DNA of 32,377 nucleotides from a virus, in IMG/VR virus record IMGVR_UViG_3300042544_001039, positions 1-32,377 of that record. One strand, 5' to 3'. Positions 4,301-9,453 of this stretch are shown piece after piece (positions within the stretch are counted from its first letter, which is position 1; every line of letters begins with the position of its first letter). Made by a program: the position numbers and the translations under genes. The notes below the pieces were generated by a model. It was not told where the DNA came from. It saw only the letters and a program-made list of their open reading frames with translations, and ran no database searches.

Positions 4301-4500
4301 CTAGGGGTGCAAGTAACTGTAAACAGTTGGCAGTAGTTTACACCTAAAATAAATTTTTAAAAATATTTTTTTTATTTTTTTTCAATTTAGGTGCAAGTAG
4401 TTTACAGTTGAGGTTTAAAAATATAAATATCAATCAGTTAGGGGTGCAAGTAAAGGTGCAAGTAGTTTACACTTTGTTTACACCTAGTTTACACTAAAAA
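4301..4500. other. Candidate replication origin (iterons plus AT-rich tract)
   Basis: This 200-bp non-coding stretch lies between a strong terminator and the promoter of the primase-helicase gene. It holds four direct copies of GGTGCAAGTA, six copies of GTTTACA (one inverted) and a perfect palindrome AACTGT-AA-ACAGTT (4315-4328). Between the first and second repeat groups lies an almost pure A/T tract (4343-4389), a natural unwinding element. Repeats, AT tract and adjacent replication initiator are the classical organisation of iteron origins. Alternatively the repeats may be operators controlling the 4538 promoter; both may hold. Confidence 0.65.
4306..4493 (+). repeat. Iteron-like repeats GGTGCAAGTA and GTTTACA
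   Basis: GGTGCAAGTA occurs at 4306-4315, 4390-4399, 4443-4452 and 4455-4464. GTTTACA occurs at 4336-4342, 4400-4406, 4465-4471, 4476-4482 and 4487-4493, with an inverted copy at 4318-4324. At 4390-4406 and 4455-4471 the two motifs abut to give a 17-bp composite, GGTGCAAGTAGTTTACA. The two motifs also resemble each other as inverted halves (AGGTGCAAGTA against AGGTGTAAACTA), so a dimeric protein could read them. Confidence 0.85.
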
Positions 4501-4537: not shown

Positions 4538-4545
4538 TATATTTG
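4538..4545 (+). promoter_or_regulatory. -7 box of the replication-module promoter
   Basis: TATATTTG fits TAnnTTTG. No good TTG is present 19 bp upstream, so the promoter may be weak or activator-dependent; the repeats end 44 bp before it. A start about 5-8 nt downstream would place the 5' end of the RNA at the first hairpin of the structured leader. Confidence 0.6.
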
Positions 4546-4549
4546 CATC

Positions 4550-4634
4550 GTTGAGTAGACGCAACATTTAAGGTATTTTATTTAAAAGCCCTGTAATGCG
4601 AGGAACGTCTACCCTCAATTTACGGGGTTTTTTA
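4550..4634 (+). ncRNA. Structured 5' leader with complementary hairpin loops and terminator
   Basis: Hairpin 1 is GUUG (4550-4553) with CAAC (4562-4565), loop AGUAGACG. Hairpin 2 has an outer stem CCCUGUAA (4589-4596) with UUACGGGG (4620-4627), extended by AAAAG/UUUU, and an inner stem GAGG (4600-4603) with CCUC (4613-4616) whose apical loop is AACGUCUAC. Loop 1 GUAGACG (4555-4561) and loop 2 CGUCUAC (4606-4612) are perfectly complementary over 7 nt. Hairpin 2 is followed by six U and so is also an intrinsic terminator, 20 nt before the primase-helicase ATG. I infer an attenuator or loop-loop switch controlling replication-gene expression. Confidence 0.6.
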
Positions 4635-4646
4635 TTTAACAAAAAT

Positions 4647-6899
4647 ATGGACGAACAAAAACTATTAAAATTTCTGGAGTATTTCTCAATCATTACAATT
4701 GGAGAAGACAAAGTTCCAAACTTTCCATGGAAAGAACAACAACAAACAAAGTTATCAGAGGAACAATTTTTAAGGCAATTAAAAACACCCACAACAACGG
4801 GCGTTGGAATTGTTACGGGTTTTGAATTTCTTGAAGTCATCGATATTGATACTAAAGTATTCAGCACACAATATGAAAAAGATGAGTTTTGGAATGAATT
4901 TTATCAAACCTTAAAAGATAATATTGTAGACTTTGAACAAAAGTTTGTTGTTTATCAAACCAAGTCAGGGGGGTATCACATTCTTTACAAATCAAAACGA
5001 GTGCAAGGAAATACCAAAATTTCTAAACTTAAAGGGCATAAAGAGGCGATTATAGAAACTAGGGGAAACGGTGGGTATGTTTTTATCTATCCTGAAAAAA
5101 AGTATGGTAAACTTTCTTATTTTGATATTGACTTTGTAACTGATTTGGATAGAGAAATACTTTGGTCTATTGCTAAGATTTACGATCATGTAGAAGACAA
5201 ACCAATAGAGCCAAAAAAAGAACCTAAAATTTATAATGAAGACGAGGTAACACCGTGGGAAGATTTTAACAATAAAACAGATATTTGGGACGTAATCCAG
5301 AATGAATTTTTTATTCCAAGGAACGGACAAAAATCTAAATACTACCTAGTCAAAAGGCACGGTGCAGAATCAGCACATAGTGGATATGTATTTAAAGATT
5401 CTGGTTGCTTGTATCTATTTACAACGGGAACAATTTACCCAAATGAAAAGTTAATCAGTCCTTTCATTGCATACGCTTATAAGTATCACAACGGGGATTT
5501 TTCAGAAGCTGGAAAAGATTTATACGAACAAGGTTTTGGAAGTAGGTTAAAAAAGAAAATCAAAGAAATTGAGCCAAAAATACCTAAAGAGATTCAAGTT
5601 GAAAACATTTCTTTTCCGATTGATATTTTCCCTAAAGAAATTCAATTTTACCTAACTGAATGCGCTACTAAATTAGATTCAAATATTGACTTTATGGGCG
5701 TGTCAATGCTTTGGTTAATATCGGTATGTATTGGAAATTCATTTGAGATTGAAGTTAAAAAAGGCTGGATTGAAAACGGGGTGCTTTGGGTTGCGGTTGT
5801 TGGTAAAGCTGGTATTGGTAAAACACCAAGCATAAACAACGTTATTTTTCCTTTGATGAAATCTAATTCAAAAGAGATTAAACGCTACATTCAAGAATCA
5901 GAAAAATATAATCACTACCAATCTTTGAGTAAAAAAGAGAAAGAAGACTATCCTGAAGTATTCGAGCCTAAGAAAACGCAATTTATTGCAAATGATATTA
6001 CACTTGAGGCACTTGTAGATTTACACCAAGAAAGCGACAATGCGGTTGGAGTATTTAAAGATGAGTTAGCTGGTTGGCTAAAAGATATGAATAAATATAG
6101 GGCTGGTTCCGATCTAGAATTTTGGTTAAGCTGCTGGAGTGGAAAATCAGTTTCAATGAATAGAAAAACCGCAAAAAGTTCATTTGTTGAAAAGCCATTT
6201 ATACCTGTTTTGGGAGGTATTCAGCCCTCAATATTTACATCATTTTCAACTGAAGAAAATAAGGAAAACGGATTTATGGATAGAATGTTACTTTCATTTC
6301 CAGATGCAAGTGTTGACGTTTATAACGATGACGAACTAGACTACCAAACCATCAAATGGTATTCTGAAAATATTACACAATTTTACCAAGGTATCAAAAG
6401 ATTAGTTACAAGAAATGAAGACGGGGATATTATAGCGACTAGGGTAAAATTTAGCATTGAAGCTAAAAAAGAATGGGTACGAATATTCAACAAAATAACA
6501 CATTCACAAAATAACGAGAATGAAAACGAGTATTTAAAATCAATGTACCCAAAGCAAAAAAGTTACATTCCTAGGTTTGCACTTTTGATAAATTGCTTTG
6601 AAAGTTTTTTTAGTGATAATGTTGGACAAATGGAGATTACAAAAGATTCAATATTGAAAGCTGAAAAATTAAGCGATTATTTCGTGTTAAACGCTCGTAA
6701 AATTAAACTTGAAAGTACAGAAGCCAACGAGATACGAAACGCTATTAAAAAAGCAGAAACACCAATTGATAAGATTAAAGCAATTTATTTGCAAGATGCA
6801 GATTTTAACCGCTCAAAAGTTGCTGAAATGTTAGGCATTTCAAGGCAGTACATTCAACAAATTATTAAAAAAATTGAAGACAATGAAAAAAACGCTTAG
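4647..6899 (+). CDS. PrimPol / DUF3987 primase-helicase (replication initiator)
   Basis: This is a 750-residue protein counted from the ATG at 4647. The N-terminal part resembles a bifunctional primase-polymerase domain: D66-I-D68 followed by SGGYH at 107-111, the metal- and nucleotide-binding motifs of that fold. The C-terminal part is of the DUF3987 helicase-like ATPase family, with Walker A GKAGIGKT at 386-393, the segment VFKDELAGWLKDM and a later VLGGIQPSIF. The extreme C-terminus carries an HTH-like MLGISRQYIQQII. The protein probably primes and unwinds DNA at the adjacent repeat region. An in-frame ATG at 4596 lies inside the terminator hairpin and is disfavoured. Its 3' end overlaps the helicase gene by 17 bases. 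Confidence 0.88.
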   Translation: MDEQKLLKFLEYFSIITIGEDKVPNFPWKEQQQTKLSEEQFLRQLKTPTTTGVGIVTGFEFLEVIDIDTKVFSTQYEKDEFWNEFYQTLKDNIVDFEQKFVVYQTKSGGYHILYKSKRVQGNTKISKLKGHKEAIIETRGNGGYVFIYPEKKYGKLSYFDIDFVTDLDREILWSIAKIYDHVEDKPIEPKKEPKIYNEDEVTPWEDFNNKTDIWDVIQNEFFIPRNGQKSKYYLVKRHGAESAHSGYVFKDSGCLYLFTTGTIYPNEKLISPFIAYAYKYHNGDFSEAGKDLYEQGFGSRLKKKIKEIEPKIPKEIQVENISFPIDIFPKEIQFYLTECATKLDSNIDFMGVSMLWLISVCIGNSFEIEVKKGWIENGVLWVAVVGKAGIGKTPSINNVIFPLMKSNSKEIKRYIQESEKYNHYQSLSKKEKEDYPEVFEPKKTQFIANDITLEALVDLHQESDNAVGVFKDELAGWLKDMNKYRAGSDLEFWLSCWSGKSVSMNRKTAKSSFVEKPFIPVLGGIQPSIFTSFSTEENKENGFMDRMLLSFPDASVDVYNDDELDYQTIKWYSENITQFYQGIKRLVTRNEDGDIIATRVKFSIEAKKEWVRIFNKITHSQNNENENEYLKSMYPKQKSYIPRFALLINCFESFFSDNVGQMEITKDSILKAEKLSDYFVLNARKIKLESTEANEIRNAIKKAETPIDKIKAIYLQDADFNRSKVAEMLGISRQYIQQIIKKIEDNEKNA

Positions 6900-8124: not shown

Positions 8125-8392
8125 ATTGATAGCTAAGTATAAAAAGCAAGGTTACATAGTTTTAAAATCAATTAGAATGAATGAAAACGGATTTCCAGAT
8201 TTACAACTACTTAAAGATTCAAAGAGTATTTTTATTGAGGTTAAGGAAAACGCAGATACATTAAAAGAGTTGCAAAAGTATCAGATTGATAGATTAATTT
8301 CTAAGGGGTTTACGGCATTTTGTCTTCACGAATCAAAGGGCATTATTTATCCAATCGACAGCGAGATAGAGAAATTTAAAGAATATTTATGA
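8108..8392 (+). CDS. VRR-NUC domain nuclease
   Basis: This 94-residue protein is a minimal VRR-NUC nuclease (PD-(D/E)XK superfamily). The catalytic core is readable: GFPD with D31, then FIEVK with E44 and K46, and the QKYQIDRLISKG helix. Stand-alone VRR-NUC proteins act on branched DNA and often accompany SNF2 helicases in phages, which is exactly the order here. The start is ATG 8108, inside the 3' end of the helicase gene; an upstream in-frame start would only add out-of-frame helicase sequence. It overlaps the next gene by four bases. Confidence 0.88.
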   Translation: MSFQSKLIAKYKKQGYIVLKSIRMNENGFPDLQLLKDSKSIFIEVKENADTLKELQKYQIDRLISKGFTAFCLHESKGIIYPIDSEIEKFKEYL

Positions 8393-9237
8393 AAACAGTT
8401 AATTCAATTAGCGGTGGTAAAACTTCCGCATATTTAGCAAAACATTTTCCATCCGACATAAATATATTTTCACTTGTAAGAATTGAAGACACTGATAACC
8501 TTTGGATGAAAGGTAAAGACGAAAAAACACGACAATTAGTTTCGGATAAAATAGGAAAAGAATTTATTGCAACTGCTGAAATGGATGAAATAATTTATAC
8601 AATTTTAGACCTTGAACAATTTATAGGACAAAAAATAGATTGGATTTCAGGAGATACATTTGAGCAAATTATTAAAAATGCTGGAAACTATTTGCCAAAT
8701 AAAATGAATCGTTTTTGTACTGTAAAAATGAAAATTGAACCTATATTTAACTTTCTTAAAGAACAAAATTCTATTCCATGCGAGATGCGTATAGGATATA
8801 GACCAAACGAAAAGGAACGAGCAGAAAATATGCTTGCAAGGGCAAGTGAAGATGGCTTTGAATATTTTAAAACTATAATAGGAAAAAGAAAAAGTCAAAA
8901 TAAATGGGGTTTAGTTCCTTATCGAAAAGCAAAATTTCCTTTAATAGATGAAAATATTACAAAAGATGTTATTTACAACTATTGGAACGATAAGCCAGTT
9001 CGATTTGCTTATAGAAATAATTGCGTAGGTTGCGTTAATCGTAATCCTTTAATGATTTCGCACATGGTAGGAAAAGATATTGATAAGGTTAAATGGTTTG
9101 AAAAGCAAGAAATAAAAACGGGTAACACTTTTTTATCTGAAGCTAATTTTACAAGTATTTTAAAGTACAATTTACAAGGAAATTTATTTGAAGATGATGA
9201 TTTTTCAAGTTGCGATAGTGGATATTGTGGAATTTAA
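8389..9237 (+). CDS. PAPS-reductase-like / adenine nucleotide alpha-hydrolase family protein
   Basis: This 282-residue protein begins with the PP-loop SGGKTSAYLAKHF (residues 7-19), which binds ATP in the PAPS reductase/ATP sulfurylase fold. It carries cysteines at about 110 (RFCT), 131 (PCEM), 212 and 215 (NNCVGC) and a C-terminal CDSGYC (275 and 280), suggesting metal or Fe-S binding. Metabolic sulfate reduction is improbable in a phage lacking other sulfur genes. Related proteins such as DndC act in DNA phosphorothioation, and stand-alone phage members are unexplained. It ends the replication operon, so a role in DNA modification or in defence evasion is plausible but unproven. Confidence 0.82.
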   Translation: MKTVNSISGGKTSAYLAKHFPSDINIFSLVRIEDTDNLWMKGKDEKTRQLVSDKIGKEFIATAEMDEIIYTILDLEQFIGQKIDWISGDTFEQIIKNAGNYLPNKMNRFCTVKMKIEPIFNFLKEQNSIPCEMRIGYRPNEKERAENMLARASEDGFEYFKTIIGKRKSQNKWGLVPYRKAKFPLIDENITKDVIYNYWNDKPVRFAYRNNCVGCVNRNPLMISHMVGKDIDKVKWFEKQEIKTGNTFLSEANFTSILKYNLQGNLFEDDDFSSCDSGYCGI

Positions 9238-9303: not shown

Positions 9304-9453
9304 ATGAAGAACGACAGAAACGCTGGAAGAAAAAAAGTAAAAGATGCGGTTATGGTGCAAGCCAAAGTGACTGCGAAATACGCTGACGAATATAAAAAGT
9401 TGGCGGAGAATTATCGAGAGTACGAAACTAAAAAATCAAGTGATGCAAAATGA
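9304..9453 (+). CDS. Small basic protein, possible ribbon-helix-helix-like
   Basis: This 49-residue protein starts with MKNDRNAGRKK, a lysine/arginine-rich head seen at the front of many small Bacteroidetes phage proteins of the ribbon-helix-helix type. A short beta/helix segment follows (VKDAVMVQAKVTAKYADEYKKL) and a charged tail. It is first behind a good promoter, as expected for a small regulator. The sequence is too short to prove a fold. Its stop overlaps the start region of the next gene. Confidence 0.6.
   Translation: MKNDRNAGRKKVKDAVMVQAKVTAKYADEYKKLAENYREYETKKSSDAK

Follow-up and report, generated by a model that had tools for sequence, protein, structure and literature searches.

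A kissing-loop leader joined to an intrinsic terminator, a candidate cis-acting attenuator in Bacteroidetes viruses

A two-hairpin leader before the primase-helicase gene

The window, meaning the whole 32.4-kb virus record that was analysed, carries genes for ERF (122-601), a helicase, the large terminase subunit and a portal protein, and a phosphoadenosine phosphosulfate reductase-like gene (phrog_424) lies at 8389-9237. The RNA considered here forms the leader of a primase-helicase gene. The features of this region, with the kind of evidence in brackets, are as follows.

4311-4495, plus strand: iteron-like repeats 5' of the promoter, GTGCAAGTAGTTTACAC along with inverted copies (sequence)
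4538-4545, plus strand: -7 box of the Bacteroidetes type, TATATTTG (sequence)
4550-4565, plus strand: hairpin 1, stem S1 GUUG 4550-4553 with CAAC 4562-4565 (sequence, permutation test)
4555-4561, plus strand: kissing strand 1, GUAGACG (sequence, partner-swap test, alignment)
4566-4583, plus strand: A/U-rich linker
4584-4633, plus strand: hairpin 2 and U-run, an intrinsic terminator (fold energy, U-run test)
About 4584-4596 with 4620-4632, plus strand: outer stem of hairpin 2
4600-4603 with 4613-4616, plus strand: inner stem of hairpin 2, GAGG with CCUC
4606-4612, plus strand: kissing strand 2, CGUCUAC, within the apical loop AACGUCUAC of hairpin 2 (sequence, partner-swap test, alignment)
4628-4633, plus strand: U-run of the terminator
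4647-6899, plus strand: primase-helicase gene (Prim-Pol and DUF3987; 750 aa), downstream of the leader

A sequence-only reading of this DNA had described a perfect 7-bp complement between the two loops, with hairpin 1 placed right after the -7 box and hairpin 2 serving as a terminator before the primase-helicase ATG, and every coordinate of that description proved correct. The loop of hairpin 1 consists of one unpaired A followed by the 7-nt kissing strand, which abuts the 3' side of the stem. Both strands of the window were checked for the GUAGACG/CGUCUAC 7-mer, and the two loops are its sole copies. TATATTTG or a close variant lies directly 5' of nearly all of the elements listed in this work. 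Transcription should begin a few bases 3' of this box, so that hairpin 1 would form the 5' end of the RNA. Folded by itself, hairpin 1 is weak in the window (-1.0 kcal/mol), in agreement with the earlier guess that it may form only with its partner. The terminator hairpin reaches -20.6 kcal/mol against a family median of -17.5 kcal/mol, and the kissing duplex has a family median of -9.2 kcal/mol. The linker region contains AAGANATTATTT in many relatives, and others have a third small hairpin there.

The ATG at 4647 lies 19 nt past the GC stem of the terminator. An in-frame ATG at 4596, inside the terminator, was rejected as the true start, as most relatives other than the close relative L002 start past the terminator; among the relatives compared, it recurs in L002 only. 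The iteron-like repeats adjoin the RNA yet lie outside it, and are probably an origin or operator. TTTACAC-type repeats were seen just 3' of the primase gene in several relatives (L145 near 12388, L148 near 12384), and the two kinds of repeat suggest an origin or operator.

Loop-loop complementarity among related leaders

A single 7-nt match would by itself be weak evidence. Homologous primases were gathered from viral contigs and MAG contigs. The test set comprised 28 non-redundant primases preceded at short distance by a -7 box and a terminator, loop complementarity being ignored in the choice. The leader's own loops matched over at least 7 nt in 26 of the 28, whereas controls with swapped partners gave a mean of 2.7 such matches and a maximum of 9 in 10,000 permutations. 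The two exceptions, L084 and L113, each retain a 6-nt match. Stem S1 behaved in the same manner, with at least 4 bp in 21/28 leaders against a permuted mean of 7.0 and a maximum of 15. As judged from these comparisons, the persistence of the match among relatives is not chance. The pairing persists despite variation, with 26 distinct kissing sequences among the 28 leaders, and in L035 the window's loop pair is swapped, CGUCUAC standing in hairpin 1 and GUAGACG in hairpin 2. That the letters vary between phages and yet nearly always match indicates that the contact is real and that it probably helps to set gene output.

Covariation was found in both the loops and the stems. In alignment A4, made up of 13 class-B leaders, 100% of the kissing-helix cells are paired and 5/7 pairs show two-sided changes, and the covariation score of the whole structure was 0.483, compared with 0.189 when shuffled and at most 0.103 when slid. 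When no terminator was required, 40/43 loci had a T-run no more than 35 nt past loop 2, against a background of 27%.

Distribution and natural variants

A custom scan of the first locus set returned 72 distinct candidates, 66 of them on the gene strand, and a few of the 72 are chance or repeat-driven. The whole arrangement was matched 6.35 times per 100 kb in these phages and 0.36 times in shuffled DNA. The family comprises about 60 distinct elements, the window leader being one member. Downstream lie primases, helicases, HNH and GIY-YIG endonucleases, small genes heading operons and genes of unknown function. The ATG follows the terminator at a median of 19 nt, and 54/57 distances lie within 8-33 nt; single values are approximate because the count took the first ATG opening a frame of at least 40 codons. 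Some phages carry 2-3 elements, each with different loops, so no cross-pairing would be expected among the elements of one genome.

Among cultured phages, the element stands 5' of the primosomal protein gene in Polaribacter phages P12002L and P12002S, before gp030 (itself upstream of the primase/helicase gene) in Cellulophaga phage phi19:1, and 5' of an HNH-like gene in Flavobacterium columnare phage FCV-11; its function is thus directly testable in cultured Polaribacter, Cellulophaga and Flavobacterium phages. A further element recognised by eye in L163 (9350-9445; GCTTCGAC/GTCGAAGC) precedes the helicase gene gp034, whose annotated start at 9441 appears to fall inside its hairpin 2 region. 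A short variant with loops CCGCCAAG/CTTGGCGG occurs at L155 7915, L148 8257 and L138 7086 with differing genes downstream and, unlike other elements, keeps its loop sequence. The scanner found no element in Flavobacterium phage 11b, Bacteroides phage B124-14, Persicivirga phage P12024L, Cellulophaga phage phi18:1, FpV9, Elizabethkingia phage TCUEAP1 or the first 36 kb of phi38:1. In 395 genomes of the class of G001, the class-B covariance model gave one chromosomal match; inspected by eye, this is an ordinary terminator that lacks a kissing partner, and we rejected it. This model covers one subclass under strict filters, so the result argues only weakly for absence from chromosomes.

The narrow spacing to the ATG would also suit a role in translation. 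We think it unlikely, though still worth weighing, that the hairpin pair mainly shields the 5' end or places ribosomes, read-through of the terminator being constitutive or brought about by a phage factor sensing the shape of the kissing complex, an antitermination comparable to put RNA or Rop-bound kissing loops. Recognition of shape would account for a structure that is kept while its sequence varies, and elements with unrelated loops share the linker motif. Translation control, however, would not need the strongly conserved U-run after hairpin 2, and no candidate RNA-binding protein was identified.

The most informative natural variants come from the Baltic. The mumin-type leader was found in 46 records, all from phages of Flavobacterium sp. 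LMO6/LMO9. Three alleles are represented, namely GUGGAACG/CGUUCCAC in mumin, mymlan and snusmum, GUGAGACG/CGUCUCAC in hattifnatt, hemulen, stinky, tooticki, filifjonk and lillamy, and GUGAGAAG/CUUCUCAC in morran, and in these LMO phage alleles every loop change is answered in the partner loop. Two compensated pairs differ in leaders that are otherwise near-identical; between mumin and hattifnatt the linker and the 5' arm of the terminator are almost the same. The mumin allele accompanies a helicase/VirE-primase module and the other alleles a TOPRIM-primase module. In snusmum9-1 (L167 3000-3200), hattifnatt-like sequence 5' of loop 1 is followed by the mumin loops and module, as if the two had recombined at hairpin 1.

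An HNH gene with its own element is missing from filifjonk and lillamy, and since the two are absent together the leader seems to move along with the gene that was inserted. The arrangement resembles an insertion cassette, the HNH gene and its kissing-loop leader being present in mumin (L174 2018-2640) and absent at the matching place in filifjonk (L170 2644-2655). This joint inheritance, like the narrow spacing ahead of start codons in unrelated genes, speaks against an ordinary promoter and terminator that yield a free-standing small RNA, with the gene expressed from elsewhere. A promoter and terminator would suffice for an RNA of about 85 nt, but we consider this explanation very improbable.

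In element pairs with similar flanks, the loops differ at 19% of positions and the flanks at 14.5%. Pair changes in these comparisons were compensated in 48 cases, accommodated through G-U in 5 and scored as broken in 33; several of the broken pairs seem to result from an alignment displaced by one base (L072, for example) or from setting unrelated elements against each other. That loops change at least as fast as their flanks in close pairs may reflect selection favouring new specificities, of the kind expected when an RNA acts in trans. The terminated leader would then persist as a small RNA, its loops would bind the nascent leader of another genome with the same loops, and the replication of like phages would be limited, by incompatibility or control of superinfection, in the way that P4 CI RNA works in immunity. 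We regard this reading as improbable. A trans-acting RNA would explain loops that are diverse yet strictly self-complementary, and loop alleles that differ from one replication module to another (helicase and VirE primase in mumin, TOPRIM primase in hattifnatt); P4 moreover silences its own replication genes through a leader-derived RNA (PMC4825925). Against it, the Baltic phages that carry the element are described as virulent (PMC7077304), so that lysogenic immunity is not its role there and a P4-like function is weakened, although loop diversity still allows a role in trans. The cis partner, about 45 nt away, should also out-compete an RNA acting in trans, and the element lies mostly 8-33 nt before the start codons of many genes, endonucleases among them. 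Within the same loci, extra copies of the loop 7-mers numbered 47 against 52.3 expected, and this lack of excess targets favours a contact in cis.

Proposed mechanism and comparison with known systems

These data allow us to propose a mechanism, and we lean with some confidence towards a cis-acting attenuator whose terminator device includes the kissing contact. The leader would comprise a promoter, a small hairpin at the 5' end and, about 20 nt ahead of the start codon, an intrinsic terminator whose loop is joined to that of hairpin 1 by a kissing helix of 7-8 bp. The loop proportions would fit an H-type pseudoknot or a kissing complex, with 1-2 unpaired A, then 7 paired bases, and few or no unpaired bases between the kissing strand and the closure of the stem. 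Most transcripts would end at the terminator; the contact could form once loop 2 leaves RNA polymerase and would tune the efficiency of stopping, so that little replication protein or homing endonuclease is made, at a set level. Termination dependent on the kissing contact in cis would be the most economical reading, and the contact may either raise or lower read-through. The paired letters would be free to drift because only complementarity counts in cis.

We count in favour of the cis attenuator the test of own against swapped partners, the fully paired kissing helix of alignment A4 with its two-sided changes, the compensated loop changes in cultured phages, the L035 loop swap, the U-run found without selection and the narrow spacing to varied genes; counted against it is the rate of loop change in close pairs. 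Comparison across relatives shows that the kissing pair is maintained, and with it both stems, the U-run, the position of the promoter and the tight spacing to the gene. A loop-loop attenuator was also what the sequence-only reading had envisaged, and the covarying contact in an attenuator-like leader with a terminator bears this out in part; a conserved antiterminator fold was not seen. In 66 elements the 5' arm of the terminator was paired upstream at 0.304, against 0.266 with shuffled upstream sequence. With no conserved antiterminator partner the leader does not qualify as a classical two-state attenuator and may be a purely static terminator. An antisense RNA across hairpin 2, started from a minus-strand -7 box, had been proposed as well. 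The box TATTTTTG (4647-4640) is present in the window but is not conserved in relatives, a minus-strand box following the terminator in 3/66 elements (4.5%) and in 6.0% of random stretches, and we rejected the antisense RNA.

No Rfam family covers the element at gathering score (weak non-gathering matches only), and no description of such an element was found in the open-access literature; an earlier description elsewhere is possible. It is possible, though less likely than not, that these leaders form a class of phage regulatory RNA so far without a description. In such a class a hairpin at the 5' end would kiss an intrinsic terminator at its apex, and the letters of the loops would act as an address, open to change, by which several elements in one cell, or phages that co-infect it, avoid interfering with each other. 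The element covaries strongly, has no Rfam entry and occurs in many Bacteroidetes virus contigs; it would provide natural orthogonal attenuators for Bacteroidetes, where regulatory parts are few.

The element would link a tertiary contact with an intrinsic terminator, a mode of control for which no example is known to us. The IncB/IncI-alpha RepZ leader also uses long-range loop-loop pairing, forming a pseudoknot that activates translation and that an antisense RNA blocks. The likeness, drawn in the sequence-only reading, holds only for the loop-loop contact in a replication-gene leader; here an intrinsic terminator supplies the partner loop at its apex, an antisense promoter is not conserved, and the element also stands 5' of homing endonucleases and other genes. 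In leaders of the IncI-alpha type, translation of a leader peptide opens the structure; in the present family the in-frame ATG at 4596 is shared by the window and L002 only. DUF805b RNA (Rfam RF02914) is likewise a short RNA right after a TATATTTG box, but it is about 35 nt long and its model does not match the present element at the gathering threshold. L129 carries both, with DUF805b RNA at 447-479 directly after TATATTTG.

In satellite phage P4, complementary segments of an untranslated leader before the replication genes (CI RNA, seqA-seqC) are tied to transcription termination (PMC4825925), and internal complementarity upstream of replication genes is found here too. The P4 RNA, however, is processed and acts in trans in lysogeny, whereas the present element is a short cis kissing pair that uses the terminator loop, occurs in phages described as virulent, where it does not answer to a role in lysogenic immunity, and precedes many kinds of gene. 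The attenuators of the pT181 type tie kissing hairpins to terminator formation in the leader of a replication gene (PMC3753616). They require a separate antisense RNA and switching structures, neither of which was found here, and a mutually exclusive antiterminator was not seen in the 66 elements. The order that defines an intrinsic terminator, a stem and then a U-run, is present in 40/43 loci taken with no selection for it.
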